A stretch of 64,000 nucleotides of DNA from Oscillospiraceae bacterium (lineage in GTDB: Bacteria > Bacillota > Clostridia > Oscillospirales > Ruminococcaceae), in the NCBI GenBank assembly GCA_017466885.1, contig JAFTTH010000002.1, positions 62,001-126,000 on the forward strand, read 5' to 3'. Both the position numbers and the translations under genes were made by a program. Numbering within the stretch: position 1 is the first letter of the stretch; each line of letters begins with the position of its first letter. Below the pieces are notes generated by a model. That model did no database searches. It was given only the letters and a program-made list of their open reading frames with translations, and had not been told where the DNA came from. Shown here one piece after another: positions 1,396 through 62,635 of this stretch.

Positions 1396-1396
1396 T

Positions 1397-3469: not shown

Positions 3470-3482
3470 AGGAGTGGAAACC

Positions 3483-3692: not shown

Positions 3693-3699
3693 CGGCGTC

Positions 3700-3745: not shown

Positions 3746-3803
3746 TTTCTGGCGGGAATGGATAAAAAAGCCCCTCTTCCGACCCGTTGCGTCAAAAACT
3801 GCT

Positions 3804-3831
3804 TTGACATTTGTCTGCATTATGGTATAAT
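3804..3831 (+). promoter_or_regulatory. Sigma-A promoter of parA-parB
   Basis: TTGACA (3804-3809) and TATAAT (3826-3831), both perfect consensus, 16 bases apart. It lies 41 bases upstream of the parA start. Confidence 0.85.
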
Positions 3832-3872
3832 AGAGTGGAATCAGTATGTTTTTGAAAGGATGTTTTTTGTCC

Positions 3873-4643: not shown

Positions 4644-4673
4644 TTCCCATCAGAACGGAAAGGACGATGATTT

Positions 4674-5546: not shown

Positions 5547-5566
5547 TTCCTTTTTCAGGTGATACC

Positions 5567-6301: not shown

Positions 6302-6315
6302 GGAGCGTTGACATT

Positions 6316-7203: not shown

Positions 7204-7219
7204 TTCCCCTCAATCCTAA

Positions 7220-7252
7220 AACCCGGTAGAAGGATCTACCGGGTCTTTTTTG
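7220..7252 (+). terminator. Bidirectional intrinsic terminator
   Basis: ACCCGGTAG (7221-7229) pairs with CTACCGGGT (7236-7244), then CTTTTTT. It stands between convergent genes; the opposite strand also shows a short T-run (TTTTA), so it may serve deoC as well. Confidence 0.9.
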
Positions 7253-7268
7253 ATTCATTTTTTGCGGA

Positions 7269-7922: not shown

Positions 7923-7925
7923 TCT

Positions 7926-8903: not shown

Positions 8904-8933
8904 TTCACCATCTCCGCATTATTACTGACAATA

Positions 8934-8963
8934 ATTGTATCACCAATGAAGCGGTATTGGCAA
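8934..8963 (-). promoter_or_regulatory. Sigma-A promoter of hydrolase-deoC
   Basis: On the minus strand TTGCCA (8963-8958), 18 bases, TACAAT (8939-8934), 31 bases upstream of the start. Divergent from the acyltransferase promoter at 8992. Confidence 0.65.
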
Positions 8964-8991
8964 GAGATGAAAGGCAGAAAAAGGATATTTC

Positions 8992-9020
8992 TTGCTATTT
9001 TCCTCCGAATCGTTTACAAT
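8992..9020 (+). promoter_or_regulatory. Sigma-A promoter of acyltransferase gene
   Basis: TTGCTA (8992-8997), 17 bases, TACAAT (9015-9020), directly followed by the GGAGAGGAG ribosome site, giving a very short leader. Confidence 0.65.
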
Positions 9021-9042
9021 ATTGGAGAGGAGTGAGAGACAA

Positions 9043-10320
9043 ATGGATATCGAAGTAAATTACAGAAATAAAAACCGGTATAAAACCGCCCGATACCCCT
9101 TGCGCCAGCGTCTTTTCTGGACCTGGCTGATCCGTCTTCTTTCAAAAATCGCACTCCACGGCAAGGATTATCGGGTAGAAACAGTTGGGATGGAGAACCT
9201 AAAGCCCCCCTATCTGCTTTTGAGCAACCATATGCATTTTATAGATTTTGAACTGGCCGCTCAGGCCACCTGGCCCTATTCGGTCAGCAACGTCGTCAGC
9301 ATTGACGGTTACGTGATCAAATTCTTTCTTTTGGAGTGGATCGGCGCCATTGCCACCCGGAAGTTTACCATGGACCTGCATCTGATCAAATCCATCCGGA
9401 AGGTCCTCCAGCGGGGAGATATCCTCGCTATGTACCCTGAGGCGCGATATTCCCCCTGCGGAACCCTTGCATTCCTGCCCGAATCTTTGGGGAAGCTTAT
9501 TAAGCTCAATAAGGTCCCGGTGGTGGCGGTAGTCCACCACGGCAACCATCTTTACGCTCCCTTCTGGAACTTCCGAAAGAAGCGGAAGGCCCCCCTCCAT
9601 ACCGTCTGCAAGCTGATCCTGACCCCCGAACAGGCAAATGAAATGTCGGTAGATCAGATCAACGCACTCCTGAAAAAGGAGCTGGCCTATGACGATTATC
9701 GCTACCAAAAGGAGCAACAGATCCGCATCACCGAGCCCTACCGTGCCGAAGGACTGCATAAGGTGCTTTACCAATGCCCCCATTGTATGACCGAATTCAA
9801 AATGGACTCGGCAGGAGCCGAGCTTTTCTGCACCGCCTGCGGCAAACGGTGGGTCTGGGAGGAGGGCGGAAGTCTCCGCGCCCTGGAGGGAGAAACCGAA
9901 TTTGACCATATCCCCGACTGGTTTGCCTGGGAGCGGGAGCAGGTAAAACAGCAGATTCGGGAGGACAACTACTCCTTCAGCGATGAGGTGGAGGTCTGGT
10001 CCCTGCCCCGGGTCTACCGCTATATCCCCTTGGGGAAGGCCCGGATGACCCATCAACCCGATCAGGGCTTTGTTTTGGAGGGAGAATACCGGGGAGAGCG
10101 GTATTTCATCCAGAGGCTCCCCCTCCAGACCAACAGTCTCCACGTAGAATACGATTTCGGCCCTCTGAAAAAGATCGACTGTGTGGATATTTCCACCGAG
10201 AACGACTCCTTCTATTGCAAGCTCTCCCAGCCAAACAGGATCACAAAGCTCGCCTTTGCCACCGAGGAGCTTTATCTCCGCTCTATGGAAAAACTCCGTG
10301 CCGACAAAGAAGCAAAATAA
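9043..10320 (+). CDS. Lysophospholipid acyltransferase-like protein with zinc ribbon
   Basis: 425 residues. The N-terminal half is a PlsC-type glycerophospholipid acyltransferase: the catalytic HX4D motif reads NHMHFIDFE (about residue 61-69) and the acceptor motif reads YPEARYSP instead of the common PEGTRS. About residue 243-275 carries a CPHC...CTAC zinc ribbon, followed by a C-terminal beta-rich domain of unknown function (to 425). ATG 9043 is chosen from the strong GGAGAGGAG at 11 bases. Substrate unknown; phospholipid or glycolipid synthesis at the membrane is the family role. The zinc-ribbon plus C-terminal extension is unusual. Confidence 0.75.
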   Translation: MDIEVNYRNKNRYKTARYPLRQRLFWTWLIRLLSKIALHGKDYRVETVGMENLKPPYLLLSNHMHFIDFELAAQATWPYSVSNVVSIDGYVIKFFLLEWIGAIATRKFTMDLHLIKSIRKVLQRGDILAMYPEARYSPCGTLAFLPESLGKLIKLNKVPVVAVVHHGNHLYAPFWNFRKKRKAPLHTVCKLILTPEQANEMSVDQINALLKKELAYDDYRYQKEQQIRITEPYRAEGLHKVLYQCPHCMTEFKMDSAGAELFCTACGKRWVWEEGGSLRALEGETEFDHIPDWFAWEREQVKQQIREDNYSFSDEVEVWSLPRVYRYIPLGKARMTHQPDQGFVLEGEYRGERYFIQRLPLQTNSLHVEYDFGPLKKIDCVDISTENDSFYCKLSQPNRITKLAFATEELYLRSMEKLRADKEAK

Positions 10321-49911: not shown

Positions 49912-50106
49912 ATGAGCAAGATCGCTGCTATCCTCATCACTTTCTTCCTGGGTGGCCTGGGCGTCCATCGTTTTATGGCCGGAAAAATCGGTACCGGTAT
50001 TCTTTGGCTGATCTCCGGTGGTCTCTTCGGAATCGGCTGGCTGGTTGACTTTATTATGGTCTGCCTCGGCAAATTCAAGAAAAAGGGCGGCGGCAAGTGG
50101 GCCTAA
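49912..50106 (+). CDS. TM2-domain small membrane protein
   Basis: 64 residues, two TM helices with the conserved turn FFLGGLGVHRFMAGK and GGLFGIGWLVDFIMV of the TM2 family, basic C-terminus. Function unknown. ATG 49912 follows GGAGAG by 8 bases. Own promoter and terminator: a single-gene unit. Confidence 0.88.
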   Translation: MSKIAAILITFFLGGLGVHRFMAGKIGTGILWLISGGLFGIGWLVDFIMVCLGKFKKKGGGKWA

Positions 50107-50122
50107 GCTTCCATAACAAAAG

Positions 50123-50161
50123 ACACACCACCGGGGAAACCCTGCGTGGTGTGTTCTTTTT
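50123..50161 (+). terminator. Terminator of TM2 gene
   Basis: ACACACCAC (50123-50131) pairs with GTGGTGTGT (50146-50154), then TCTTTTT. Confidence 0.9.
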
Positions 50162-50215
50162 CCGTTATTTCATTTTTCATGAGGATGATATCCCGGCAAG
50201 AGGGGGGTAAGATCT

Positions 50216-50416
50216 ATGATCGTATTTGATAAGCTATGGATTACGATGAAAGAAAAGGGCGTTTCAACCTATAAGCTGAGAGAAGCGTGCGGGATCGACA
50301 GCAAAACCATCCGCCGCCTAAAAGCCAACGAAAATATCGAAACCAAAACCATAGATAAGCTATGCACCGCTCTGGATTGCCGCATTGAGGATATTGCAGA
50401 ATATAGAAAGGAGTAG
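50216..50416 (+). CDS. Small XRE/HTH_26-type regulator
   Basis: 66 residues, almost entirely a Cro/C1-type HTH (STYKLREACGIDSKTIRRLK). The GC-rich chromosome style ends about here and island-like sequence begins. Its stop overlaps the first base of a hairpin nearly identical to the one after the second XRE gene at 53.1 kb. Target unknown. Confidence 0.85.
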   Translation: MIVFDKLWITMKEKGVSTYKLREACGIDSKTIRRLKANENIETKTIDKLCTALDCRIEDIAEYRKE

Positions 50417-50455
50417 ACACATCACTTTGGTTTTCCCCAAGGTAATGTGTCTTTT
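50416..50455 (+). terminator. Terminator hairpin, copy A of a repeated element
   Basis: GACACATCACTTTGG (50416-50430) pairs with CCAAGGTAATGTGTC (50437-50451) then TTTT. Both arms are identical to copy B at 53111. The following ~25 bases also weakly resemble the 3' end of the GGGtGRT gene. Confidence 0.8.
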
Positions 50456-50560
50456 CTATTCTTGGAAAGATTCCTTGCCAGAAATCTCAATCGCATCAAT
50501 TCTTTTTCTTTGGATATTCAGCATTTTTTGATCATTGAACCCATTTCAGTTAAAAAAGGG

Positions 50561-50589
50561 TAAACATTTCAACGCTGGTATGTTATAAT
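50561..50589 (+). promoter_or_regulatory. Promoter of the 114-residue protein gene
   Basis: TAAACA (50561-50566), 17 bases, TATAAT (50584-50589) with an extended -10 TG. Confidence 0.6.
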
Positions 50590-50623
50590 ATCATCAGTCT
50601 GAAAACATCGGGAGAGGTGCTTT

Positions 50624-50968
50624 ATGGATATATTAAAGATCAACGAATTGGCAGAAAGATGGGATTGCGCTACCGATCAAGTCATTCAATTTGAAAATCC
50701 GGGATTTCTGAAAGTTCGCACCCTCTTTCGGGATACTTTGGCAATTTTAGAAAAATACCGTACAGATAAACTGGTTCCCAAAGAAATAAGCGGTATGCTC
50801 CTTGAAATGAATTCCTTCGGTTGGTGGGTAAGTGATCTAAAGGAAACCCCTTTGCATGATCATTATCAAGAGATTGTTTCCTTAATCTTCGATTTGAATC
50901 AATATTTTTTGACCTGCAATGTAAATACGGAAGCCATAATGGCTACTATTGAAAAAATTGACGAATAA
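50624..50968 (+). CDS. Hypothetical protein (114 aa)
   Basis: Not recognised. Acidic, mostly helical, soluble; Trp-rich patch near the middle (NSFGWWVSDLK) and no TM segment or known motif. Clear SD GAGAGG 7 bases before the ATG and its own promoter. Size and acidity recall immunity or antitoxin-type proteins, but this is only an impression. Stands alone between two terminators. Confidence 0.7.
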   Translation: MDILKINELAERWDCATDQVIQFENPGFLKVRTLFRDTLAILEKYRTDKLVPKEISGMLLEMNSFGWWVSDLKETPLHDHYQEIVSLIFDLNQYFLTCNVNTEAIMATIEKIDE

Positions 50969-51087
50969 TCAATACGCAAATGCAAAGGTGCCGTGGTGCG
51001 TAAAATCGTTTCACGGAACGTGACCTGCTCCGATTATGCAGTTTGTGTTATAAAAAGGCAACTTATGTCTTTCGGTATCATGTTGAT

Positions 51088-51131
51088 AATAAAAAAATAG
51101 CTGTGGCAATTTGCCACAGCTATTTTTTATT
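51088..51131. terminator. Strong bidirectional terminator
   Basis: AAAAAATAGCTGTGGCAA and TTGCCACAGCTATTTTTT form a near-perfect 18-bp stem with A- and T-runs on both sides. Ends the 114-aa gene (plus) and the three-gene module (minus). The 120 bases before it hold no gene. Confidence 0.95.
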
Positions 51132-51342
51132 ATCTTAAAGCTCCCCATTTTTGGAATTTGGGACAACTTGTTCCATCCGAAGCTGTTGGGCCTTGTGTTA
51201 CGCCACAAAACACATTCGCATAACATTTACCCCTTTCACTTGGAGAGGGTGCTTCTGCAGAACCTAATTTTTCCACCCGGGGACCTGCCCAGTTGGCACA
51301 ATTAACACAACGCTTAGAATTACGATCAGGAGTCCAGGACAT
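51130..51342 (-). CDS. Small Cys-rich protein (70 aa), probable zinc binder
   Basis: Unknown function. Five cysteines include CVNCANWAGPR near the N-terminus, then GKCYANVFCG and TSCPKFQKW, a spacing that suggests a metal-binding knuckle. Third gene of a minus-strand module behind the 351-residue-frame protein and the 60-residue protein, 49 bases after the latter. Its stop lies at the edge of the bidirectional terminator. Confidence 0.65.
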   Translation of the reverse strand: MSWTPDRNSKRCVNCANWAGPRVEKLGSAEAPSPSERGKCYANVFCGVTQGPTASDGTSCPKFQKWGALR

Positions 51343-51391
51343 AAAAATTTCCTTCTTTCTTCATAAATATTCTAATAGAAAAATCTTTCTA

Positions 51392-51574
51392 TTATTTTAC
51401 GAGTTTCTCGCAAGACTCGACGGTTGTATACTGTCCGGAATATTGCTCTCTGAAGGTCTGCATGGCGTGATGTCTGTCTCCCGCTTCAACCAGAGCCACC
51501 CCTCTAACCCCGCCATTCAAGACTTTCGGAATATAAACAATTTTCCAAGTTTCCCATTTTCCGTAAAAGCTCAT
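51392..51574 (-). CDS. Hypothetical protein (60 aa)
   Basis: Not recognised. Basic N-terminus (MSFYGKWETWKIVYIPK), then VALVEAGDRHHAMQTFREQY and a C-terminal ESCEKLV; looks like a compact alpha/beta domain. Middle gene of the XRE-linked module, 18 bases after the large gene. Confidence 0.65.
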   Translation of the reverse strand: MSFYGKWETWKIVYIPKVLNGGVRGVALVEAGDRHHAMQTFREQYSGQYTTVESCEKLVK

Positions 51575-51592
51575 AATGGTCCTCCCGAAAAA

Positions 51593-52630
51593 TTATGCTT
51601 CGCCATTTTCAATGCTATTTTCGATGTAGTTATAAATCAGATCGGATGCGGCTTCAATCGTTTCGGCCCCTTCTCCCATTTCATCCGCGATTTTTTCCCA
51701 CGCATAGAAACAAGCGGCATCCATGAATTCCGGCTGCTGTATTGCCCAATATTTCCATGTGTAATTCCGACTGGAGAAGATAAGATTGCTTTCTAAAATA
51801 CATTTTGCGGCTTGCTGCAATTTATTTTCTTTTTCAAACTCCTCCTCAAAAGGATCTTCGCCGAACTCTTCTTGATAGAATGCGGAGTTCTTCACAGCAT
51901 CGCGACAATCTTCTATGGTAATGGAAGTATAGTTTTCTTCCCGGTCTTGAGAATCTTGATAGTGGAAAGCGCGCAGGGTTGCGGAATATAATTTAGGAAT
52001 ATACTCATAATTTCTTAAAGTGTCCTTACAGGCGCGCTCCAGCTGCAAAATCACCATGTCTGCGGCAATTTCCTGCATAAGCTCATCGCCGGAAAACAGC
52101 GCCTCAAGCAGTTCTTCACAAATAATCTTTGCAGCTATTCTTTGATGCGGATAATCAAAAGCGCTTGGAAGAGAATTCATGATTTTTCCAATTCCCTGCT
52201 CCAGGATGCGTTTTGAGGGATTATTCTCAACCACCTTGAATATTCCTTTGAATTTCTCACGTACCTCATCCCGAAAATCTGCATAGCAGATATCATAAAC
52301 TTCTTCCTCTTTGAACCAGGAAATACCCCCGTCTTTATAATCCGCACGTGAGCTCTGCATCGCGGTAATCTGATACCATATTTCATTTGTTTTGGGTTCC
52401 ATTGACCCTTCGAATTTCCCCAGCGCCTTATCCAGTGTTCCTTCATTGCAATTTCCGCCGTATTTTGCTTGGATAAACTTTTTCATCTGTTCCTTTTTCA
52501 AGCGAGGAACCGCAAGCAATAAGTTCAGTATAATGTCGTAGTACTTCTTTTCCTCTTCGTCCATTGGGCCAATTAAACCGGATTCAATTGCATTTCCCAC
52601 AGTATCCTTCAGTTTATCAAATAATCCCAT
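51593..52630 (-). CDS. Hypothetical protein (345 aa), first gene of XRE-linked module
   Basis: Not recognised. Soluble and mainly helical. It opens MGLFDKLKDTVGNAIESGL, a form common to small helical cytoplasmic proteins, then a KFIQAKYGGNCNEGTLDKAL segment that could be a winged-helix, and a long acidic C-terminus. No catalytic motif, TM or signal peptide seen. ATG 52630 is preferred (AAAGG at 10 bases) over an upstream in-frame start at 52648. Expressed from a promoter flanked by three copies of an operator that also faces the divergent XRE gene. Confidence 0.7.
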   Translation of the reverse strand: MGLFDKLKDTVGNAIESGLIGPMDEEEKKYYDIILNLLLAVPRLKKEQMKKFIQAKYGGNCNEGTLDKALGKFEGSMEPKTNEIWYQITAMQSSRADYKDGGISWFKEEEVYDICYADFRDEVREKFKGIFKVVENNPSKRILEQGIGKIMNSLPSAFDYPHQRIAAKIICEELLEALFSGDELMQEIAADMVILQLERACKDTLRNYEYIPKLYSATLRAFHYQDSQDREENYTSITIEDCRDAVKNSAFYQEEFGEDPFEEEFEKENKLQQAAKCILESNLIFSSRNYTWKYWAIQQPEFMDAACFYAWEKIADEMGEGAETIEAASDLIYNYIENSIENGEA

Positions 52631-52704
52631 CAAAAACCAACCTTTCAAAAAATAAGATTTCGACCAAGCCTATCCAGTATTTAGAAAATATGCTTCTTTT
52701 AAAT

Positions 52705-52733
52705 AGTATAACTCTTTAAGACTAATTAGTCAA
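52705..52733 (-). promoter_or_regulatory. Promoter of the three-gene module
   Basis: Minus strand TTGACT (52733-52728), 17 bases, TATACT (52710-52705). One operator copy fills the spacer and a second abuts the -35. Confidence 0.85.
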
Positions 52734-52789
52734 CCTTATAAGCCTAATTAAACAGAATTTTTATGATAAACTATTCTTATAAGACTAAT
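52714..52789. promoter_or_regulatory. Three phased operator repeats
   Basis: CTTTAAGACTAAT (52714-52726), CTTATAAGCCTAAT (52735-52748) and CTTATAAGACTAAT (52776-52789), same orientation, end-to-end spacings 22 and 41 bases, that is about two and four helical turns. Position over the minus promoter and before the divergent XRE gene points to XRE control of both. Confidence 0.75.
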
Positions 52790-52802
52790 AAGGGGTCATA
52801 AT

Positions 52803-53084
52803 ATGAATGTTGGCGAAAGACTGCTTGAAATGAGAAATCGATGCTGGCTCACGCAAAATGGCTTGGCAGAAAGAGCCGGCGTATCACAAACACATCTGCG
52901 CAGAGTTGAGCTGGGTCAGGCTGATATTACTGTGGGGCATTTGGAATTATTATGCGATGCAATGGGCATTACCCTTCAGGAATTTTTTAATGTGGAAGCG
53001 CGAAATGATGAGTTATCCATTGCGCTTTCCAAACTCACGCCCAAGCAAAAGAAGCTCCTGATCGCTTTTATTGAAAGCTTATAG
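52803..53084 (+). CDS. XRE-family regulator of the three-gene module
   Basis: 93 residues. Cro/C1 HTH at about 5-62 (LTQNGLAERAGVSQTHLRRV), then a helical tail ending KKLLIAFIESL. Divergent from the three-gene module, with three operator repeats between; likely represses both. Ends 26 bases before terminator copy B. Confidence 0.88.
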   Translation: MNVGERLLEMRNRCWLTQNGLAERAGVSQTHLRRVELGQADITVGHLELLCDAMGITLQEFFNVEARNDELSIALSKLTPKQKKLLIAFIESL

Positions 53085-53103
53085 GATTTATTTTTCCCAC
53101 AAA

Positions 53104-53150
53104 GAAAAAAGACACATCACTTTGGGATTTCCCAAGGTAATGTGTCTTTT
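53104..53150. terminator. Bidirectional terminator hairpin, copy B
   Basis: GACACATCACTTTGG (53111-53125) pairs with the inverted arm ending ATGTGTC at 53146, loop GATTTC; T-run on plus side and AAAAAA on the left. Identical arms to copy A. On the minus strand it stands just after the GGGtGRT gene fragment, as the intact gene's own terminator does. Confidence 0.85.
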
Positions 53151-53165
53151 ATGTTTTGGAAAAGA

Positions 53166-53262
53166 TTACTTGCTGGCAACCTCAACAGCAACCGCGCAGG
53201 CAACGGTGGCGCCGACCATGGGGTTATTACCCATACCGATCAAGCCCATCATCTCAACGCAC
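53166..53262 (-). pseudogene. 3' fragment of a second GGGtGRT gene
   Basis: About 97 bases that align with the 3' end of the intact gene at 61637. Encoded residues run VEMMGLIGMGNNPMVGATVA and on to VEVASK-stop: 28 of the last 30 residues match the intact protein while about 16 of 95 bases differ, mostly silently. Homology stops abruptly at 53262. Best explained as a displaced gene end left by integration or recombination. Confidence 0.85.
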
Positions 53263-53419
53263 TCTGAATCAGTACAAAAGATAACTTTTCAGAACATAGC
53301 CCGAAAGCCTTGTTATGACTTGATTTTTAACACTATTTGATTGTAAAATTTGTCTCGCTAAACACATCGTTTTGAGTTTTCCTGACTACATTATCGCGTG
53401 TTTATATATATTTGTAAGC
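53263..53419. other. Unassigned AT-rich stretch
   Basis: No gene, repeat or RNA structure recognised between the GGGtGRT fragment and the broken DUF6809 gene. A minus-strand frame reading NQVITRLSGYVLKSYLLY could be a remnant but has no start context. Confidence 0.4.
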
Positions 53420-53709
53420 ACCCGTTTCATTGAAGAATTTTATTATGGTAATCTTGATCCCCAGGCATGCAGTACAAAGGAAAAAAAGCCGTGCAGAAAC
53501 AAATGGAGGTGCTGATGCTAAATGATGATTACCTAACCGAGAACCTTTCGGGTGAATGTAAAAAGAAATTTCTTGATTTCGTCAATGCTTGGGGAGTAGT
53601 TAACGGTGAATCAAACCTGGATAGTTTTATAGTGAGGTTTCGCCTTGGAGCCAACTTTACATATGATACCTTTGTATCCAAAGAAGCGCCCTTTAGGAAG
53701 TTGATATAA
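53420..53709 (+). pseudogene. DUF6809-like gene, start lost and frameshifted at A7G
   Basis: The frame from 53420 encodes TRFIEEFYYGNLDPQACSTK, matching the conserved N-terminus of DUF6809-type proteins, but no start codon or SD precedes it. At 53481-53488 a run of seven A then G (A AAA AAG in the zero frame) shifts the reading: the rest of the domain (FLDFVNAW...FIVRFRLGANFTYD) continues in the -1 frame to 53709. Either a decayed gene, a homopolymer sequencing error, or -1 programmed slippage; the missing start favours decay. Confidence 0.6.
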
Positions 53710-53729
53710 AAGCGATGATAGCAAATAAA

Positions 53730-53766
53730 AGTCAGCAGTGTTCTCAAAATACTGCTGACTTTCTTC
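53730..53766 (+). terminator. Terminator after DUF6809-like gene
   Basis: AGTCAGCAGT (53730-53739) pairs perfectly with ACTGCTGACT (53751-53760), then TTCTTCT. Confidence 0.85.
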
Positions 53767-53785
53767 TCGAATTATTTAAAGTCAC

Positions 53786-53814
53786 TTGCGATTTATGTTA
53801 AATTGTAGTATAAT
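53786..53814 (+). promoter_or_regulatory. Promoter of dockerin/cohesin operon
   Basis: TTGCGA (53786-53791), 17 bases, TATAAT (53809-53814). Transcription would begin near 53821, 217 bases before the start codon. Confidence 0.7.
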
Positions 53815-53820
53815 GTATAT

Positions 53821-54037
53821 TGCCAAATTGTAATGATATATAAAAAACGAAAACACTTATTACATAGGGGGTAGTATACCCTTTTTTCTTGCGTCATGAA
53901 TTTGATAAAAATGCAAATTCCATTGACGTGAGTACTTAGTGTTTTCGTATCGATATAGTTTGGCGACTATCGGAGTTTGCGTTTTTTGTGCGGTTGCTTC
54001 GGTGGCCGCACTTTTTATTTTATGAGAGGTAACTAAG
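53821..54037 (+). promoter_or_regulatory. Structured 5' leader with terminator (riboswitch-like)
   Basis: A 10-bp stem CGAAAACACT (53848-53857) / AGTGTTTTCG (53938-53947) encloses two hairpins: GGGTA/TACCC (53869-53881) and a long arm CGTCA plus GAATTTG paired with CAAATTC plus TGACG (53892-53928). A further CGATA/TATCG hairpin (53951-53972) follows, then an intrinsic terminator just before the SD (GAGAGG). This three-way-junction plus terminator layout is that of a transcriptional riboswitch; no known class was recognised. Confidence 0.6.
53988..54020 (+). terminator. Leader terminator before dockerin-protein gene
   Basis: GTGCGG (53988-53993) pairs with CCGCAC (54006-54011), then TTTTTATTTT, 17 bases before the ATG. 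Would block the operon unless relieved. Confidence 0.8.
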
Positions 54038-57000
54038 ATGAAAAAGGTATTGTCACTGGTTTTAACGATAGCATTGACCTTGTCAATTATACCGACGGGA
54101 TTGTTTAGCATAACTGCGAATGCACAGATGACGGAAGAATTCGCAGGCGGCAGCGGTACAGCAGTGGATCCTTATTTGATTGAAACTAAGGAACAACTGA
54201 ACAATGTTCGCAATAATCTCGGTGCACATTATAAGCTTGTTGCAGATATCTTTTTTGAAAAAGAAGATTTTGCAAATGATGGCAACTTTTATAATAACGG
54301 TCATGGATTTGTCCCGATTGGCGATTCATCGGACAACGCCTTCACAGGCACGTTTGATGGCAATGGTTTCATTATTTACAACATTTATATTTCAAATATC
54401 GATACGGATTGTGCAGGCCTCTTCGGTCGAAGCGATGGAACAATTAAAAATCTTGGCATGGTATATAGCGATATAAGAGAAACGCACTCTTCCACCTGTT
54501 ACGCAGGCGGAATCGTCGCGTGCAACCATGGGGCTATTACAAATTGCTATAATACCGGAAAAGTTATGGCATACTGTTCAAATGGTTACCTGGCTATCTC
54601 TTATGTAGGCGGCATCGCAGGAATCAATTATGGAGCAATAGAAAATTGTTACAATACCGGTGACATAAGAGCAGATGCCGGGTCTTATTATAGGGCAACG
54701 GTGGAAGTTGGCGGTATTTGTGGGTACAATGTTTTAGACGTAGCGAATTGTTATAACACAGGCTACGTTACCGGCGCTGCCGCGATTCATCCCGCTGACC
54801 ATATTTCTTCCGCTGATACTCGCAAAACCACTTATGCAGGCGGCATTTGTGGGTACAACAGCAGACGTCTTGTTAATTGTTATTATCTTAACAACATTCA
54901 AACGGGTGTCGGAAGTGACACGGATAACACAACCAAATGTACGGAAGAGAAGCTTAAGCTTCAGTCAACATTTCTCGGTTTTGATTTTGAAAACGTATGG
55001 GAGTTTGATGAAACGCTGAAAGCCTATGCGTTTCCCGTTTTAAAAAATGCTCCTCATTTCGAAAAGGAAAACACGGTAGAGTTTGCGGGAGGGTACGGAA
55101 CAGAAAAATACCCGTTTTTAATTGCAACTGCCAATAATCTTACAAATGTGCGACATCATATGAATGCACACTACAAATTAGTGTGCGATATTGATCTTGA
55201 TGGATGGACTTGGACGCCTATCGGCGATAATACCAACATTTTTAAAGGTGTTTTTGACGGCGATTTACACGTTATAAACAACCTTAAAACAGGTGGCTAT
55301 AATGATTACAAGGGACTTTTCGGCTATAGCACCGGAACGATCCAGAACCTTGGGATACGTAATTGCCATGTGAGTGAGGACATGGTTTCCACCCTATACG
55401 TAGGAGGCATTGTCGGGTATAACAGTGGTACGGTTATGAATTGCTATACCACAGGCAGTGTGTTTGCAGATGCGGGAGCGAGGGAAGGCGACATTAATTT
55501 TGCTAATGCCGGAGGAATTGTCGGTTACAACAGAGGCTTGGTTAAAAAATGCTATAGCACCTGCAGTGTGACAGCCTATGCCTCTCCTTCTTCGAATAGC
55601 GGATCATATTCTGCCAACTCAATGGCTTTTGCAGGCGGAATCGTTGGAGACAACAACGGCACGGTTACAGATTGTTATAATTCCGGGAGCATATATGCGT
55701 CATACTTATGCAGTGGACTCAATGTTAGTTATGAAGCGTATGCGGGCGGAATTGCGGGACGCAATTTTTATAGCGGAAAGATCTTTACCGCCTATAACAT
55801 CGGCGATGTAGACAGTACCCGTGTTTTCGGTGGCATTGCAGGATATAACAACAATTCCATTTATAATTGCTACTATATCGACAGTGCTTATATGGTAGCA
55901 GGGGGTAATAGTAGTAGCACATCCAAAAAGTGTACGTTATGGGAAATGGAACAGCAATCCACTTATGCGGGCTTTGACTTCGAAACCGTGTGGGAAATAG
56001 ACGGCAACGGAAGATATGAAGCTCCTACATTGCAAGGGGTTCCCATGGTCGGGAAATCATACGTTACGGATATGGAGATAACGGCAAAGCCGAATAAACT
56101 AATCTATCTTGAGGGGGATGCCTTTGATCCCGCGGGAATGGTAGTTACGCTACATTACGATGATGACAGAGAAGTGTGTACTGCAGATTATACGGTAAGC
56201 GGATATGACTCAACGCCCGGCACCAAAACAATCACTGTCGAATATAACAATGTGTCGGCAAGTTTTGAGGTTGTTGTTGAAGAACTCACACATATTGAGA
56301 TAACAACAAAGCCGGATAAACTTATTTACCTTGAAGGAGATAAATTCGATCCCACGGGAATGGCAGTTACTGCATATTCAAGCAGCACAAATGGTCTCGT
56401 TTTAGATTACACGGTTAGTGGTTATGACTCAACACCCGGCACCAAAACGATTGTTGTTACATATATGAATAAAACGGCAACATTTACTGTGGAGGTTGAG
56501 AAAAAGTCCTTTGTTGATTTTGACATAACAACAAAGCCGAGCAAGCTTACGTATCTTGAGGGCGATTTGTTTGACCCGACGGGTATGATTGTAACAGCTT
56601 ACTATAATAACGAAACTAATACGGAGGTTACGGATTATACGATAAGCGGATACGATTCAACGCCCGGTATCAAAACAATCACTGTTGAATATAACAACGT
56701 GTCAAAAAGTTTTGAGGTTGTTGTTGAGGCAAAATCTTTAACATCTATTGAAATTACAAAAACGCCGACAAAAACGGAGTATTTAGAAGCCAAAGATGAA
56801 CTGTCGGTTGTTGGCGGACAAATCACATTATATTATAACAACGGAACAAGTCAGACCATAGATATGCTCCCATCTATGGTTTCGGGCTTTGACAATACCA
56901 TTGTTGGCGTTCAAACCTTAACGGTTACGCATAACGAAAAGACGGCAACATATGACATTGAAATAATTAAGAAAACGCTTGTTTCCATTGAACTGATAGA

Positions 57001-58786
57001 TAACGGACTTAAAAAAACCTATATTGAAGGGCAATCGCTTAATGTTACAGGCGGTCAGATAAGACGATATTACAACAACGATACATATAGCGATATTGCT
57101 TTGTCTCGATTTTATATTGGCGGGTTTGACAATACGACTATAGGCCCTCAACAATTAACGGTTACCTATAATGGTTATAGCGTTTATTATGATATCGAAG
57201 TGATTGAAAAAACATTGCAAAGCATCGCAGTTTCCACTTTCCCCCGAAAAACCACCTATGTTGACGGACAGGAATTCGATGCGACCGGAATGGTTGTCAA
57301 AGCAAATTACGACAACGGACTTTCAGAAATTATAAAAGACTATACTCTCAGCGGATATGATTCTGCGCCCGGAAACAAAACTATCGTGGTTTCTTATGAA
57401 GGAAAGACGGCTTCTTTTACGGTTACGGTTGAGGAAAAACGGTTAGCATATATTTCTATTACCACCAAACCAAACAAAACGGAATATCTGGAAGGCGAAC
57501 CGTTTGACCCGACAGGAATGGTGGTTACTGCACACTATTACAATTGCGAAGATGAAATCATAACCGAATATTCTATCAGCGGTTATGATTCCACTCCTGG
57601 TTTTTATCTTATAACCATTACTTATAAAGGGAAAACGACCAGTTTTTTTGTTGATGTAAAGTCCAAGTCTCTTACATCAATTTCCGTAACCACAAAGCCC
57701 AACAAAACCACTTACATTGAATCGACTGCATTAGATGATACCGGTATGGTGTTGACATTGTATTACAACAACAATACCTCTGAGACGATAACCACCGGTT
57801 GGGTTAGTGAATATGATTTTAGTAATGTGGGAACATCGGTCGTTGAGGTTACTTATGGTGGTAAAACCTGTACCTACGACGTAACGGTTATTGCAAAGAC
57901 ACTCACTTCTATTGTTGTTGAGTCTGAACCTAACAAGCTTGAATATCTCGAAGGTGACGCAAGTTTGGATACTGACGGTTTGGTAATTCGCGCGTATTAT
58001 AACAATGATACGAGTGAGATTATTAGCGGTAATTATACTGTTACCGGATATAATTCAACGCCCGGTGAAAAGACGATTACCGTAACATATCAGGGTAAAA
58101 CCGCTACCTTCACGATTAATGTAAAAGCTAAATCGGTTAATTCGATTTCTGTAACCCAAAAACCGAACAAGCTCACATATCTTGAAGGCGATTCGTTTGA
58201 TAAAACCGGTATGGTGATTACCGCTTATTACAATAACAACACAAGTAGTGCCGTTACGGATTATGCGATAAGCGGTTACACTTCAACGGTTGGCACAAAG
58301 ACGATTACAGTTTCCTATGGTGGCAAAACAGCAACGTTTACCGTTACCGTAAATTCAAGAGTGCCATCGGAAATCACATCTTCAAAGTACACGATTAGCG
58401 GTACTAACATCAGTAAGATCGGCACAGGAACAACCGTTACTAATCTATTGAAGAGTCTCAACGAAGGTTCCTATTGTAAGGTTTACAAAGGCAGTTCCGT
58501 TGTTAACGGCGATACTGCGGTCGGAACCGGAATGACGGTTAAGATAATGGACGGGAACACTGCCAAAGCGACTTACACGATTGTCGTAACAGGTGATACC
58601 AACGGAGACGGAAATATTACGGTTACAGATATGATTGCAATTAAGGCTCACCTTCTTAAAAAATCAACGTTGTCAGGTGTTTATGCTATCGCTGCCGATA
58701 CTAACGGCGATAACGGTATTTCCATTACCGACTTTATTCAGGTTAAGGCAAAAATTCTTGGCAAAGGTACCATAGCCGCAAGATAA
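54038..58786 (+). CDS. Giant secreted GLUG/Ig-repeat protein with C-terminal dockerin
   Basis: 1582 residues. Signal peptide about 1-29. Two tandem GLUG-repeat modules (about 33-345 and 346-670), each opening with EFAGG.GT...P[YF]LI and carrying YAGGI[VC]..N.G...NCYNTG repeats. Then ten bacterial Ig-like (Big_3-type) repeats of about 75 residues (about 677-1440) with the recurring YLEGD.FDPTGM. A linker domain precedes a type I dockerin (about 1518-1582): DTNGDGNITVTD and DTNGDNGISITD are its two calcium loops. No catalytic module. A long adhesive rod expected to dock on the cohesin encoded 11 bases downstream. Confidence 0.88.
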   Translation: MKKVLSLVLTIALTLSIIPTGLFSITANAQMTEEFAGGSGTAVDPYLIETKEQLNNVRNNLGAHYKLVADIFFEKEDFANDGNFYNNGHGFVPIGDSSDNAFTGTFDGNGFIIYNIYISNIDTDCAGLFGRSDGTIKNLGMVYSDIRETHSSTCYAGGIVACNHGAITNCYNTGKVMAYCSNGYLAISYVGGIAGINYGAIENCYNTGDIRADAGSYYRATVEVGGICGYNVLDVANCYNTGYVTGAAAIHPADHISSADTRKTTYAGGICGYNSRRLVNCYYLNNIQTGVGSDTDNTTKCTEEKLKLQSTFLGFDFENVWEFDETLKAYAFPVLKNAPHFEKENTVEFAGGYGTEKYPFLIATANNLTNVRHHMNAHYKLVCDIDLDGWTWTPIGDNTNIFKGVFDGDLHVINNLKTGGYNDYKGLFGYSTGTIQNLGIRNCHVSEDMVSTLYVGGIVGYNSGTVMNCYTTGSVFADAGAREGDINFANAGGIVGYNRGLVKKCYSTCSVTAYASPSSNSGSYSANSMAFAGGIVGDNNGTVTDCYNSGSIYASYLCSGLNVSYEAYAGGIAGRNFYSGKIFTAYNIGDVDSTRVFGGIAGYNNNSIYNCYYIDSAYMVAGGNSSSTSKKCTLWEMEQQSTYAGFDFETVWEIDGNGRYEAPTLQGVPMVGKSYVTDMEITAKPNKLIYLEGDAFDPAGMVVTLHYDDDREVCTADYTVSGYDSTPGTKTITVEYNNVSASFEVVVEELTHIEITTKPDKLIYLEGDKFDPTGMAVTAYSSSTNGLVLDYTVSGYDSTPGTKTIVVTYMNKTATFTVEVEKKSFVDFDITTKPSKLTYLEGDLFDPTGMIVTAYYNNETNTEVTDYTISGYDSTPGIKTITVEYNNVSKSFEVVVEAKSLTSIEITKTPTKTEYLEAKDELSVVGGQITLYYNNGTSQTIDMLPSMVSGFDNTIVGVQTLTVTHNEKTATYDIEIIKKTLVSIELIDNGLKKTYIEGQSLNVTGGQIRRYYNNDTYSDIALSRFYIGGFDNTTIGPQQLTVTYNGYSVYYDIEVIEKTLQSIAVSTFPRKTTYVDGQEFDATGMVVKANYDNGLSEIIKDYTLSGYDSAPGNKTIVVSYEGKTASFTVTVEEKRLAYISITTKPNKTEYLEGEPFDPTGMVVTAHYYNCEDEIITEYSISGYDSTPGFYLITITYKGKTTSFFVDVKSKSLTSISVTTKPNKTTYIESTALDDTGMVLTLYYNNNTSETITTGWVSEYDFSNVGTSVVEVTYGGKTCTYDVTVIAKTLTSIVVESEPNKLEYLEGDASLDTDGLVIRAYYNNDTSEIISGNYTVTGYNSTPGEKTITVTYQGKTATFTINVKAKSVNSISVTQKPNKLTYLEGDSFDKTGMVITAYYNNNTSSAVTDYAISGYTSTVGTKTITVSYGGKTATFTVTVNSRVPSEITSSKYTISGTNISKIGTGTTVTNLLKSLNEGSYCKVYKGSSVVNGDTAVGTGMTVKIMDGNTAKATYTIVVTGDTNGDGNITVTDMIAIKAHLLKKSTLSGVYAIAADTNGDNGISITDFIQVKAKILGKGTIAAR

Positions 58787-58797
58787 GGAGAAAGAGC

Positions 58798-60024
58798 ATG
58801 AAAAAGATAGTTTCAGTTTTAATAGTGTTTGTAATGTGTTTTGCGCTTATGTTACCTGTGACTGTTTCTGCCGCAAGTGCAAGTGCAAGTTTGACAGGTC
58901 CTGGTACCGTTCGTGCCGGCGATACCATTACACTTAGTTTTAATCTTAAAGGTAGTGGCATTTTCGGTGCTTCGGGAACGCTTTCCTATGATAGCAGTCA
59001 GGTTACGTTGTCGGGGACTTCTCAGAAAATTGGCTCACCTTGGGCAGTTGAGTTTAACGGAAACAACTTTGTTGCTTATGATAATAACTTGAGTAATCCT
59101 ATAAACAGCAGCAAAACCTTGTTTACTGTTACATTTAAGGTAAATTCGGTGGCGGCGGGAACGAATATTAAAATATCTTATACGGGCGTTACTGCTTCTG
59201 ACGGTAGTGCAGACGCTTCGGTAGGTACGGTTACATATTCTACAACAGTAGCAGCGCCGCTTGCTACCGATAACAATCTTGCCAGTTTAACGGTTAGCAA
59301 TGCGACTATTTCACCCGCCTTCTCAGCAGGCACAACAAGCTATACTGCAAGCGTGCCTTTTGAAATCTCTAAATTGAACGTTTCGGCAACTGCGGCAGAT
59401 GGTAAAGCAAAGGTTTCTATCAATAGTCCGACTCTTACACCTAACGGAACTACTAAGGTTACCGTGACTGTTACTGCTGAAAACGGAGCTAAGAAAACCT
59501 ATACGATTTCCGTTAAGAGAGCGCAGGATCCAAACTACAAGGCAAGTGGCAACAATAATCTGTCAGCAATAACGGTAGAAGGTTTCTTGCTTTCGCCCGG
59601 ATTTAATGCAGATACTACACAGTATGTTATTTGGTTGCCGTATGAAACTACGAGCGTTAAGATAAGCGGTTCTGCGGCTGATAGTAAAGCTTCTGTTGTA
59701 GTCGTTGGTGGTGATACTCTCGTGGCCGGTCAGGATAATCCTATTAAGGTAATTTGCACCGCCGAGAACGGCGGCAAAAAAGAGTATACCATTATCGCAA
59801 AGCGAGCAGCGGCACACGATGGTTCAGTAGAGGAATTACCTGAGGATACAACAACCCCCGATGCTACTCAACCCGATGATACTACCGCGAATACACAAAT
59901 GGATGATACCGCAAAGACAAATAATGGTGTTGCTTGGTGGTGGCTTATCGTTGTAGGCATTGGTGCTCTTGCGATTGGTGCAGTTGGTGGATTTTTTGGT
60001 AAAGAAATTATAAAGAAAAAATAA
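58798..60024 (+). CDS. Membrane-anchored cohesin-domain protein
   Basis: 408 residues. Signal peptide about 1-26; cohesin domain about 29-150 (ITLSFNLKGSGIFGASGTLSYD, NPINSSKTLFTVTFKVNS); two cadherin-like beta-sandwich repeats about 155-345 (LASLTVSNATISPAFSAGTT and LSAITVEGFLLSPGFNADTT); an acidic Thr/Asp linker; a TM helix about 380-402 and a lysine-rich cytoplasmic tail. It would hold dockerin proteins at the cell surface without LPxTG or SLH anchoring. Co-transcribed with, and the likely partner of, the dockerin protein. Confidence 0.88.
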   Translation: MKKIVSVLIVFVMCFALMLPVTVSAASASASLTGPGTVRAGDTITLSFNLKGSGIFGASGTLSYDSSQVTLSGTSQKIGSPWAVEFNGNNFVAYDNNLSNPINSSKTLFTVTFKVNSVAAGTNIKISYTGVTASDGSADASVGTVTYSTTVAAPLATDNNLASLTVSNATISPAFSAGTTSYTASVPFEISKLNVSATAADGKAKVSINSPTLTPNGTTKVTVTVTAENGAKKTYTISVKRAQDPNYKASGNNNLSAITVEGFLLSPGFNADTTQYVIWLPYETTSVKISGSAADSKASVVVVGGDTLVAGQDNPIKVICTAENGGKKEYTIIAKRAAAHDGSVEELPEDTTTPDATQPDDTTANTQMDDTAKTNNGVAWWWLIVVGIGALAIGAVGGFFGKEIIKKK

Positions 60025-60060
60025 ACTAAAAAGGCTCCCGAACCGAGATTCGGGAGCCTT
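60022..60060 (-). terminator. Terminator of the 348-aa membrane protein gene
   Basis: AAGGCTCCCGAA (60031-60042) pairs perfectly with TTCGGGAGCCTT (60049-60060); the T-run lies on the minus-strand side (TTTTTAGTTTATT). Confidence 0.9.
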
Positions 60061-60064
60061 AAAT

Positions 60065-60092
60065 ATCGGTCTGAAATGACCGATTTTCTTTT
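60065..60092 (+). terminator. Terminator of the cohesin gene
   Basis: ATCGGTC (60065-60071) pairs with GACCGAT (60078-60084), then TTTCTTTT. Confidence 0.8.
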
Positions 60093-60121
60093 GGGTTGCG
60101 TGAAATGATTAGGTCTTGAAA

Positions 60122-61168
60122 TCAGCCGTCCCCGACGTCAGGCCAATCATCGTCGTTGGTATGATGCTCCCAATATGATGTTATGATCTTGTTTAATTCC
60201 TCGTTGCTCAATTTACCCGAATAATATGCGTTTTCAGCGGCAACCTTTTCTTCGAAAGAAACGTAAGGTGTTGAGGTAGGACTGCTGTGATTAAAGCTTG
60301 TCTGAGCGGGATTTGTGCTCTGAACGGAGGTGTTAGGCTGCGGCGTGCTATTAAGAGATATACCCATTCGCTTGTTATATTTCCCTATATCAAATTCACT
60401 TGACACGCTACGGCTTCTCTCAATTATGTCGCACTCAACAACATACCCTGCGCAAGCCGCAACAAAGTCACTGTCTGACTTAATAGTAACGAGTGCCGTG
60501 CATATCCGATAAGATAACGCCATCAAGCCCCAAAATGCGAAAAAAGCAATTGTCAGGATAAGAATGCCCACTAAAATTTTCAAGATAAGAATCCAAATCG
60601 GGTTGGAGCCTGCGGCTGCTAAAGCGCTCCAATTCATGTAAAGGAAGCACCCGATTATTCCAATCACGTAAGCAATATCAAACGCAAGACAGAATTTAAA
60701 GGCGCCGACAGCAAACCGGGGGTATTCGAATGCTTTTGCTTTTTTTGAAAGCGTTCTGGGATTCGGTTTGTTGTTTGTATCGAGTGTCAGCTCGGAAACG
60801 TCGGGAGAATATTTTTTAGATACGACCAATTTGACGATCAAGCCTACGATTAAAGGTAAAAAGCAAACATGGATAACGACCAATGCCGCAAACCAATACC
60901 ATACAGCCAAATCGACAACGGGCAAGATCAAATTATAAAACCAATGCCATATACTTGAAAGAACAGGAATTTCGATTTCGGGGTGTCCTTTAAATATAAA
61001 GCTTTCGGTCGCACCATAGGTAAATATACAGAAAAGGGGAAAAAATATTGTTGCCCAGATCAAAACGGCAATTTTATAAGCCCTTTTAGATTGTTGGAAT
61101 TTGAATATTCTGGAATTAATATAAATTACCGCTTGAGGAAGATTATTGGAGTCGATTGAAGTTATCAT
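60122..61168 (-). CDS. Four-TM membrane protein with SHOCT-like tail (hypothetical)
   Basis: 348 residues, not recognised. TM helices at about 30-52, 78-118, 152-178 and 190-220, then a Ser/Thr/Pro/Asn-rich linker and a short helical end (EEKVAAENAYYSGKLSNEEL) that resembles SHOCT-type oligomerisation helices. A+T-rich like its neighbours. SD GGAGAG 7 bases before ATG 61168. May be membrane partner of the surface system or merely co-resident in the island. Confidence 0.75.
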   Translation of the reverse strand: MITSIDSNNLPQAVIYINSRIFKFQQSKRAYKIAVLIWATIFFPLFCIFTYGATESFIFKGHPEIEIPVLSSIWHWFYNLILPVVDLAVWYWFAALVVIHVCFLPLIVGLIVKLVVSKKYSPDVSELTLDTNNKPNPRTLSKKAKAFEYPRFAVGAFKFCLAFDIAYVIGIIGCFLYMNWSALAAAGSNPIWILILKILVGILILTIAFFAFWGLMALSYRICTALVTIKSDSDFVAACAGYVVECDIIERSRSVSSEFDIGKYNKRMGISLNSTPQPNTSVQSTNPAQTSFNHSSPTSTPYVSFEEKVAAENAYYSGKLSNEELNKIITSYWEHHTNDDDWPDVGDG

Positions 61169-61197
61169 TATGAACTCTCCTGTATATATTTGCGTTT

Positions 61198-61226
61198 ATT
61201 GTAACACATATTTACTGACAGGGCAA
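61198..61226 (-). promoter_or_regulatory. Promoter of the 348-aa membrane protein gene
   Basis: Minus strand TTGCCC (61226-61221), 17 bases, TACAAT (61203-61198). Confidence 0.6.
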
Positions 61227-61229
61227 TAG

Positions 61230-61307
61230 GCGAGCGTGTTAACCCAAGGCAAAACATTTTCGGGGTGGATCAATGCAGTGCTCGAAGCCCGACGTAAAGG
61301 TAAATAA
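61230..61307 (+). pseudogene. Possible C-terminal gene remnant
   Basis: A short open stretch ending TFSGWINAVLEARRKGK-stop, the kind of C-terminus seen in ribbon-helix-helix antitoxin-like proteins. No start or upstream homology remains, and it overlaps the truncated end of the integrase remnant on the other strand, so it may be chance. Confidence 0.2.
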
Positions 61308-61508
61308 CATAGTTGTTATACATCATACTGTTAAATTGCTCTAGTGGCATCTTAGGATTGAAATATTTACAGAATAGAGAATAACTCTGCTTGTAGAGTT
61401 TTTTGTGTCCTCCCTCAGATTTCTCTGCCTACAATTGTCAAGATACTTATTACAACCTTCCTCAAAAGTGATGGTTTCTGTTGCGGTCATTTTCAGCCTT
61501 TTCATCAT
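61298..61508 (-). pseudogene. Tyrosine integrase remnant (SAM-like N-terminal domain)
   Basis: From ATG 61508 the minus strand encodes MKRLKMTATETITFEEGCNK and YLDNCRQRNLREDT, the core-binding domain start of phage/ICE-type tyrosine recombinases. A one-base deletion (TCT-AC for TCT-TAC) then shifts frame, after which YKQSYSLFCKYFNPKMPLEQ and FNSMMYNNYVIYL continue the same domain. Similarity ends near 61298; the catalytic R-H-R-Y domain is gone. It starts only 10 bases from the terminator T-run of the GGGtGRT gene and reads away from it, as integrases next to an attachment site do. Confidence 0.8.
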
Positions 61509-61517
61509 AAAACCTCG

Positions 61518-61566
61518 CAAAAAAGATTGGACACATCATGAGGGTAAACCTCAAAATGATGTGTCC
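61518..61566 (-). terminator. Terminator of the GGGtGRT operon, copy C of the repeated hairpin
   Basis: GGACACATCAT (61529-61539) pairs with ATGATGTGTCC (61556-61566); minus-strand tail AATCTTTTTTG. The outer arms share GACACATCA with copies A and B, but the loop differs. Confidence 0.85.
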
Positions 61567-61636
61567 AATGAATTTTTTATGATATTTTGCGTTTCTTCAA
61601 ACTTTGAAAAGTCTGAAAACCCTTATAAACAAAGGG

Positions 61637-62635
61637 TTACTTGCTGGCAACCTCAACAGCAACAGCGCAAGCAACGGTCATACCAACCATAGGGTTGTTA
61701 CCAGCACCGATAAGTCCCATCATCTCAACGTGAGCGGGAACGGAGGAGGAACCGGCAAACTGGGCATCCCCGTGCATACGGCCCATAGAGTCGGTCAAGC
61801 CGTAAGAAGCAGGACCGGCGGCAACGTTATCGGGATGGAGGGTACGGCCGGTACCGCCGCCGGAGGCAACGGAGAAGTACTTCCGGTCGTTCTCGCCGCA
61901 CCATTTCTTATAGGTGCCGGCAACCAGGTGCTGGAAGCGGGTGGGGTTGGTGGAGTTACCGGTGATGGAAACGTCAACCTTCTCGTGCCGCATAATGGCA
62001 ACACCTTCCAGAACGTCGTTGGCGCCGTAAACCTTAACAGCGGCCTTCTCGCCCTTGGAGAATGCAACCTCACGGACAACCTTCAGCTCTCCGGTGGAGA
62101 AATCGAAATCGGTCTCAACGTAGGTAAAGCCGTTGATCCGGGAGATGATATAAGCCGCATCCTTGCCCAGGCCGTTGAGGATAACGCGGAGGGGCTTTTT
62201 GCGGGCTTTGTTTGCAGTACGGGCAATACCGATGGCGCCCTCTGCGGCGGCGAAGGACTCGTGTCCGGCCAGGAAGCAGAAGCAGTCAGTATCCTCCCGG
62301 AGGAGCATTGCGGCGAGGTTCCCGTGGCCACGGCCAACATTTCTCTGCTCCGCAACAGAACCGGGGATGCAGAATGCCTCAAGGCCGATGCCGATATCCT
62401 CGGCAGCGTCAGCCGCCTTAACGGTGCCCTTCTTCAGAGCAACGGCAGTGCCCAGGGTATAAGCCCAAACGGCATTCTCAAAAGCGATGGGCTGAACGCC
62501 CTTAACGATCTCTTCCACGTTGATCCCTTTGGAAAGACAAAGGTCACGGGCTTCTTCCAGAGATTTCATGCCATACTCGGCAAGACATGCCTCAATTTTC
62601 GGCATTCTTCTTTCTTTGCTCTCAAACTGTGCCAT
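61637..62635 (-). CDS. GGGtGRT family protein
   Basis: 332 residues. Contains the eponymous SVASGGGTGRTLHPDN near 255-270. Members of this conserved family are found beside a NifU-like scaffold in anaerobes; biochemical function is unknown. No TM or known catalytic motif; GNSTNPTRFQHLVAGTY and AIRTANK-type basic stretches are conserved-looking. ATG 62635 is chosen because GGAGG lies 8 bases upstream. 15 bases after the scaffold gene. A partial second copy of its 3' end lies at 53166. Confidence 0.88.
   Translation of the reverse strand: MAQFESKERRMPKIEACLAEYGMKSLEEARDLCLSKGINVEEIVKGVQPIAFENAVWAYTLGTAVALKKGTVKAADAAEDIGIGLEAFCIPGSVAEQRNVGRGHGNLAAMLLREDTDCFCFLAGHESFAAAEGAIGIARTANKARKKPLRVILNGLGKDAAYIISRINGFTYVETDFDFSTGELKVVREVAFSKGEKAAVKVYGANDVLEGVAIMRHEKVDVSITGNSTNPTRFQHLVAGTYKKWCGENDRKYFSVASGGGTGRTLHPDNVAAGPASYGLTDSMGRMHGDAQFAGSSSVPAHVEMMGLIGAGNNPMVGMTVACAVAVEVASK

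Follow-up and report, generated by a model that had tools for sequence, protein, structure and literature searches.

An adjoining dockerin gene and single-cohesin hook gene in an Oscillospiraceae genome as a probable one-client surface-display cassette

A dockerin gene and a cohesin gene adjoin in the window

The stretch of DNA analysed here (the window) comprises 64,000 nucleotides of the draft genome of an Oscillospiraceae bacterium (GCA_017466885.1, contig JAFTTH010000002.1, positions 62,001 to 126,000). Within it, two adjoining open reading frames (ORFs) on the plus strand encode a cohesin/dockerin pair: the first (54038-58786; 1582 residues) ends in a dockerin and is termed the client, and the second (58798-60024; 408 residues) carries a single cohesin and is termed the hook. 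The gap between them is 11 bases, and the client stop codon TAA is directly abutted by GGAG, the likely ribosome binding site of the hook gene (58784-58790, plus strand). An earlier note on this DNA, made from the letters alone, had described such a two-gene pair with neither partner catalytic, and both observations are confirmed here. The two genes probably encode a surface-display cassette for one client.

The client has a signal-peptide-like start, as judged by eye, followed by a GLUG-rich head (about residues 34-680, 54137-56077, boundaries approximate; Pfam Glug, 71.2 bits over 5 stretches), ten Big_3 immunoglobulin (Ig)-like repeats (about residues 684-1430, 56087-58327, outer boundary approximate; 298.8 bits over 10 stretches), a linker domain and a C-terminal type I dockerin (residues 1519-1574, 58592-58759; Pfam Dockerin_1, PF00404, 41.2 bits). 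The dockerin scores above the profile cut-off and has two duplicated calcium loops with helices, the ligand positions of which appear intact in the sequence. An EF-hand identity was considered for this C-terminus and rejected: EF-hand families scored below their cut-offs and dockerin well above, and the predicted fold agrees with a dockerin. No catalytic Pfam family scored above its cut-off in either protein (extra rows at E values up to 1 were all below cut-off), and no enzyme or carbohydrate-binding module (CBM) family was found in the client at E up to 1. The combination of GLUG and Ig repeats suggests an adhesin, which is the likeliest guess for the role of this rod outside the cell.

The start of the hook is also signal-peptide-like by eye, with a helix at residues 2-18 in the predicted model. 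It is followed by the cohesin domain (residues 26-154, 58873-59259), two cadherin-like beta-sandwich domains (residues 162-241 and about 247-338, 59281-59811; PF12733, 66.3 bits over 2 stretches, and the model), a linker that is modelled at low confidence and is likely disordered, a predicted transmembrane (TM) helix (residues 381-407, 59938-60018; hydropathy 2.2, modelled as a helix with a mean predicted local distance difference test score of about 49-59 by block) and a KKK tail. The cohesin (PF00963) scores 27.5 bits against a curated cut-off of 24.1 and has the cohesin fold, which was recognised by fold comparison; sequence comparison with known structures had returned no cohesin for the hook and one chance hit. 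All of the families that the earlier note had named (Cohesin, Dockerin_1, Glug, Big_3 and Cadherin-like) were recovered by profile search.

An LPXTG-type signal ([LIVF]P.T[GASN]) is absent from the last 60 residues of the hook, and no search for sortase genes was made. With one cohesin and no dockerin, the hook is of the ScaE type. With a cohesin and a predicted C-terminal TM helix, it also falls under the definition of an anchoring scaffoldin without SLH, for which one or more cohesins are required together with a motif for the cell envelope, a C-terminal TM helix being an example (PMC11557425). Scaffoldins anchored by a C-terminal TM helix are included in that survey, so that a plain TM anchor is not unusual.

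The host draft genome comprises 1.82 Mb in 56 contigs and is 84% complete, with the window in contig C32. Among the first-look candidates scored in whole-genome profile searches, even with E values of up to 10 allowed, a single cohesin and a single dockerin were detected, and both belong to this pair; no dockerin beyond that of the client was found in this assembly. Of the features of a cellulosome, neither a multi-cohesin scaffoldin nor several dockerin-bearing carbohydrate-active enzymes were detected in the 84% that is covered: the single cohesin is that of the hook, and the single dockerin is on the GLUG/Big_3 protein. In a survey of the family, a cohesin was found in 64 and a dockerin in 83 of 197 genomes, the host genome counted.

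Related hooks adjoin clients with different heads

Relatives of the hook number 1523 proteins at E<=1e-5 among 7998 scored candidates, and relatives of the last 153 residues of the client (the dockerin tail) number 241; results for hook relatives rest on the best 120 of the 1523, and those for dockerin tails on the best 120 of the 241. When named genomes were scanned with the hook alignment, 8 loci were recovered, 7 of which contain a full-length hook (L149, a 57-base match at a contig end, was left out). The seven are metagenome-assembled genomes of Oscillospiraceae, Clostridia or Bacillota, four of them from sheep, roe deer or water deer gut sites. In six of the seven (L142-L147), the orthologous hook gene follows the end of a dockerin gene by 9-15 bases, with a GGAG- or GAGG-type site at the junction, as in the window. 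Among 396 family genomes, the hook alignment matches five at E<=1e-25, host genome counted, and one of these matches (G090) is without the cohesin start.

The heads of the adjoining clients vary. For instance, Pfam assigns GLUG and Big_3 to the client in L142, LRR_5 and Flg_new in L143, subtilase in L145 and L146, and Big_2 with CBM_4_9 in L147; the client in L144 has Big_3 and no other named Pfam domain, and part of its head matches the window GLUG head by BLAST (222 columns, E 6e-35). A further 16 hook/client pairs were joined by identical contig size, so that their linkage is presumed and adjacency was not seen. Across the resulting 23 pairs, identity to the window counterpart ranges from 73 to 97% for the cohesin and from 66 to 97% for the dockerin. 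Eleven of the 22 other heads match the window GLUG head at E 6e-35 or better, and the remaining 11 show either no match or one of just 27-32 residues at the signal-peptide end. In pair c12246, the cohesin is 97%, the cadherin-like part 99% and the dockerin 95% identical to the window, and the client has an LRR head with no match to the GLUG head; similarity between the two clients begins, in the main alignment, at residue 979, inside Big_3. It is proposed that the cassette has a constant part, comprising the hook and the dockerin, and a head that can be exchanged, in the clearest case (c12246) by recombination inside the Big_3 repeats.

Among the best 120 dockerin-tail relatives, partner domains are variable as well, and comprise GLUG, LRR, transglutaminase, GH25, SGNH, sialidase and subtilase; other relatives carry up to three cohesins. 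The absence of enzymes therefore does not hold as a general rule, given the subtilase clients beside orthologous hooks (L145, L146) and the transglutaminase, GH25, sialidase or subtilase proteins that bear related dockerin tails. The idea of a minimal display system without enzymes is thus supported in part: the pair does appear self-contained, with no other cohesin or dockerin detected and the pairing kept in relatives, and it is the enzyme-free rule that fails.

Proteins P0149, P0154, P0157 and P0169 resemble small adaptor scaffoldins: each has the same kind of dockerin together with Big_3 repeats and, at the N-terminus, three cohesins. The contig of P0157 is identical in size (6871) to that of the hook P0064. 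The cohesins of these three-cohesin relatives show no usable similarity to the hook cohesin, for which the best E value to any cohesin compared was 0.07. Beyond the dockerin of P0154, P0157 and P0168, and in similar form in P0149 and P0182, lie about 60-70 further residues, which end in a VVPDKKSLVTL-like motif.

The three-cohesin proteins, one of them on a contig of the same size as that of a hook, the incomplete draft in 56 contigs, and the combination of such a hook with 32 dockerins in G035 would all agree with the pair being what is left, or what has been assembled, of an ordinary cellulosome or multi-scaffoldin system. Its other genes would then be missing from the draft, and the hook would anchor larger assemblies to the cell. 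This explanation is nevertheless considered quite improbable: in the 84% of the genome that is covered, just one dockerin and one cohesin were detected, which are adjacent, G195 and G400 likewise have one of each, adjacent, and no enzyme or CBM family was found in the client at E up to 1.

Dockerin-cohesin tandems and relay-like operons recur

Gene order was surveyed in a 53-genome subset of the 197 family genomes, made up of genomes that have between one and five dockerins, plus four cohesin-only genomes out of five (G142 was not in). A tandem was defined as a dockerin less than 1 kb upstream of a cohesin, on the same strand and in a separate ORF; an overlapping dockerin (G033:C124) was counted once. 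Tandems account for 14 of the 47 cohesins (12 genomes), corresponding to 13 of the 71 dockerins, and another 12 cohesin-dockerin combinations lie within a single ORF. Where a genome has exactly one of each (15 genomes), the arrangement is tandem in six, one ORF in two, near in five and apart in two. In seven further genomes, chosen for carrying the hook, tandems account for 13 of the 19 cohesins and for 13 of the 25 dockerins. Tails were inspected for 25 of the 29 pairs analysed below, and a hydrophobic C-terminal stretch (hydropathy 1.8 or more) is present in 16 of these 25 tandem cohesin proteins.

Four genomes (G182, G119, G082 and G397, the last pieced from cut loci) contain relay-like operons, in which a dockerin-ending gene is followed by a cohesin-dockerin gene and then by a cohesin gene. 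The last gene encodes a hydrophobic tail in three of the four, and none in G182. At the relay loci L107, L112, L114 and G397:C17 (L178, L185, L203), the dockerin of each gene stands just before the cohesin of the next. The last genes of the relays in G182 (L107) and G119 (L112) have, by eye, cohesins that are alike, and so are the dockerins that precede them.

Dockerin contact residues differ between pairs of one genome

Dockerin positions 10, 11, 17 and 18 are predicted recognition residues in R. albus (PMC4081043), and were thus picked before counting. In the window dockerin, they read V T K A in one repeat and I T K A in the other. Among 22 non-redundant dockerins (seven relatives of the window dockerin were collapsed into it), the two repeats of a dockerin agree at 59 of 88 contact positions (67%), compared to 11% between different dockerins; nine other positions agree at 96 of 198 (48%) within and 22% between dockerins (shuffle p 0.0002 for both sets). 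The 29 pairs from which these were drawn include five links added from own profiles or the hook alignment (G182b, G082b, G397:C17b, G153 and G035), and the tandems G183 and G401:C28 are not among them. Several genomes, among them G396 and G398 with three pairs each, carry two to four pairs or relay links with differing contact residues: between tandem pairs or relay links of one genome, just 8 of 120 contact positions are identical, as are 59 of 270 others, and the cohesins are 12-27% identical. Two many-dockerin genomes, each with at least 31 dockerins, served as controls and were compared over the 20 (G105) and 17 (G054) dockerins with the highest scores; contact positions are common at 93% in G105 and 63% in G054, the latter value being lowered by two misparsed second repeats (L232, L233) and one truncated (L236). 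This pattern fits separate docking addresses and, as far as the sequences indicate, a two-way symmetrical plug.

These residues bear on whether the hook is a hub for several clients, like ScaE of Ruminococcus flavefaciens, with its neighbour merely the best-placed client. ScaE is a single-cohesin anchor whose group-4 dockerin partners are borne by scaffoldins, by CttA and by a peptidase (PMC5301203), and G244 has two dockerins with an identical contact motif together with one cohesin. However, no second dockerin was detected in the host genome, and the parallel pairs of one genome differ in their contact residues, in contrast to the dockerins of the many-dockerin controls. A hub is therefore regarded as unlikely. 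The contact motif is also much alike in many species, which makes docking across species thinkable. The adjacent dockerin and cohesin might then not be mutual partners at all, with the dockerin binding the cohesin of another species or the cohesin capturing a foreign client, so that cells are linked. This is judged very improbable, since adjacency is kept in six of the seven orthologous loci, pairing recurs in unrelated cohesin classes, and G401, in which the hook has no upstream dockerin, nonetheless has a dockerin with the expected I-T/K-A motif elsewhere in its genome.

Flanking features of the window and related loci

Upstream of the client gene, a sigma-70-like promoter (TTGCGA-17-TATAAT, 53786-53814, plus strand) is a consensus match only, and 25 such matches occur in the region compared to 22.7 in shuffles. 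It is followed by a structured 5' leader on the same strand (53815-54037), in which a terminator-like hairpin occupies 53988-54011; the fold z-score of 53815-54024 is -5.99. Part of this leader is 72% identical over 170 columns to that of the client in L142 (L142:6042-6238), and a relative in L143 (6434-6572, E 1.3e-28) stands ahead of a small ORF upstream of the client. The core kept in these three loci is TTTGGCGAC(T/A)ATCGG(A/G)GTTTGCGTTTTT. Rfam gave no family at gathering score for the window leader and no row at all for that of L142. Downstream, a terminator-like palindrome (60031-60060, scored on the minus strand) lies between the hook gene and a converging gene (60122-61168).

The pair is within a stretch of about 12 kb (50 to 62 kb, neighbouring genes included) with 39-43% GC, compared to 53% for the window overall. 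The low-GC stretch (50000-62000) is a candidate acquired island, and horizontal gain would fit. Among the related loci, L148 has phage-like structural genes (by eye) at 1-9400 on the opposite strand, upstream of its hook gene, where the dockerin gene is usual. A dockerin client from another genus (L111, 4626-8312) scores for MACPF (25.2 bits, cut-off 21.5) beside Big_2 and GLUG.

Proposed mechanism and the evidence against it

The sequence gives the domain order, the 11-base spacing and the GGAG abutting the client stop, the models give both folds, and no other cohesin or dockerin was detected; the pair may act as follows. Translational coupling would yield client and hook in roughly equal amounts, and both would be exported. 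The client dockerin would fold round two calcium ions and plug into the single cohesin of the hook, and its near-identical halves may allow it to bind either way round. The predicted membrane helix of the hook would keep the pair attached to the cell, and the flexible linker and the cadherin-like domains would space the cohesin from the membrane. In this arrangement, the GLUG/Ig rod would point away from the cell; that it acts as an adhesin or binds a matrix is the most likely role but also the weakest step.

Several observations weigh against a one-client cassette or its generality. Docking is a prediction from sequence and single-chain models. The genome-wide dockerin and cohesin searches scored just 9 and 3 first-look candidates, respectively, and a further partner may be missing from a genome that is 84% complete. 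Among hook relatives, L148 has no upstream dockerin gene, G090, with its partial hook match, has no dockerin match, and the hook in G035 may serve many clients in view of the 32 dockerins there. In the 53-genome subset, 58 of the 71 dockerins are without a tandem cohesin; G155 and G171, with one of each, have them apart, the cohesin precedes the dockerin in G130 and G120, and the two are divergent in G177, G196 and G062. Additionally, three of the 25 tandem cohesin proteins inspected end in a dockerin, and six show neither a dockerin nor a hydrophobic tail. Over the 22 diverged pairs, cohesin distance shows a weak partial correlation with contact residues when other dockerin positions are controlled for (r 0.18, p 0.005; 0.58 over all 29 pairs), and those other positions do nearly as well (0.14, p 0.04). 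Among close relatives, cohesin and dockerin distances correlate at r 0.77, as do those of the non-contact cadherin part and the dockerin, and the correlation therefore reflects shared ancestry only.

A broader interpretation can be put forward tentatively, as a single joint claim whose chances are somewhat short of even: gut Clostridia may display surface proteins by means of address-coded, one-to-one docking cassettes. In each cassette, a client gene would have a cohesin hook gene of its own behind it, and several mutually blind cassettes could be parallel in one cell. Recombination would swap the head of the client while the address stays, and the gene order of a relay would be that of a chain from the outside to the membrane, each dockerin fitting the cohesin of the next gene. 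The window pair would be the simplest case, and an address common to several species would let neighbours exchange clients.

Comparison with known systems

Single-cohesin anchors such as ScaE and TM scaffoldins are already known. ScaE of R. flavefaciens FD-1 is, like the hook, a one-cohesin surface anchor; its partners comprise a peptidase dockerin and non-enzymatic proteins, the dockerin proteins of this species include LRR heads, a dual binding mode has been shown for the symmetrical group-4 dockerins, and in one five-gene cluster the C-terminal part is described as conserved and the N-termini as variable (PMC5301203, PMC2930009). Unlike the window hook, ScaE is sortase-anchored (LPXTG), serves many clients and is part of a large cellulosome, whereas the window hook has a predicted TM helix, one client next door and no cellulosome seen in its 84% complete genome. 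Similarly, Lachnoclostridium sp. MSJ-17, presumably a non-cellulolytic bacterium, has a single cohesin with a C-terminal TM helix, but its scaffoldins could jointly bind up to 39 dockerin proteins, and one-to-one gene pairing does not appear in the available parts of the article (PMC11557425).

Another close precedent is the pairwise cohesin/dockerin system of Clostridium perfringens (PMC12997984; PDB 2vo8, 2jh2 and 2ozn, by title), in which the cohesins are on glycoside hydrolases and not on a membrane hook. The non-cellulosomal cohesin of Archaeoglobus fulgidus (2xdh) differs from that of the window in being archaeal. The Limousia mucinolysome is, like the window pair, a gut-bacterial cohesin/dockerin system outside cellulose degradation, but it has multi-cohesin scaffoldins, many dockerin enzymes and a sortase-anchored cSca5 (PMC12997984). 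Among titles and abstract starts, with subscription papers mostly outside the scope, no paper on one-to-one dockerin/cohesin gene cassettes was found, and a search for 'dockerin' and 'GLUG' gave none. Relative to the literature found, the bicistronic one-client cassette, the swapped heads and the differing addresses within a genome are proposed as new.

Cohesin/dockerin docking has mostly been studied as a means of gathering many enzymes on one scaffold. In the window pair, it is likely to fasten a single large surface protein to a single hook, with heads that can be exchanged between such cassettes and, in relatives, with addresses that seem to be separate within one cell. If true, this would explain many of the small cohesin/dockerin sets of gut genomes, gene order alone would predict which surface protein sits on which hook, and such genomes would offer a supply of natural, possibly orthogonal docking pairs.

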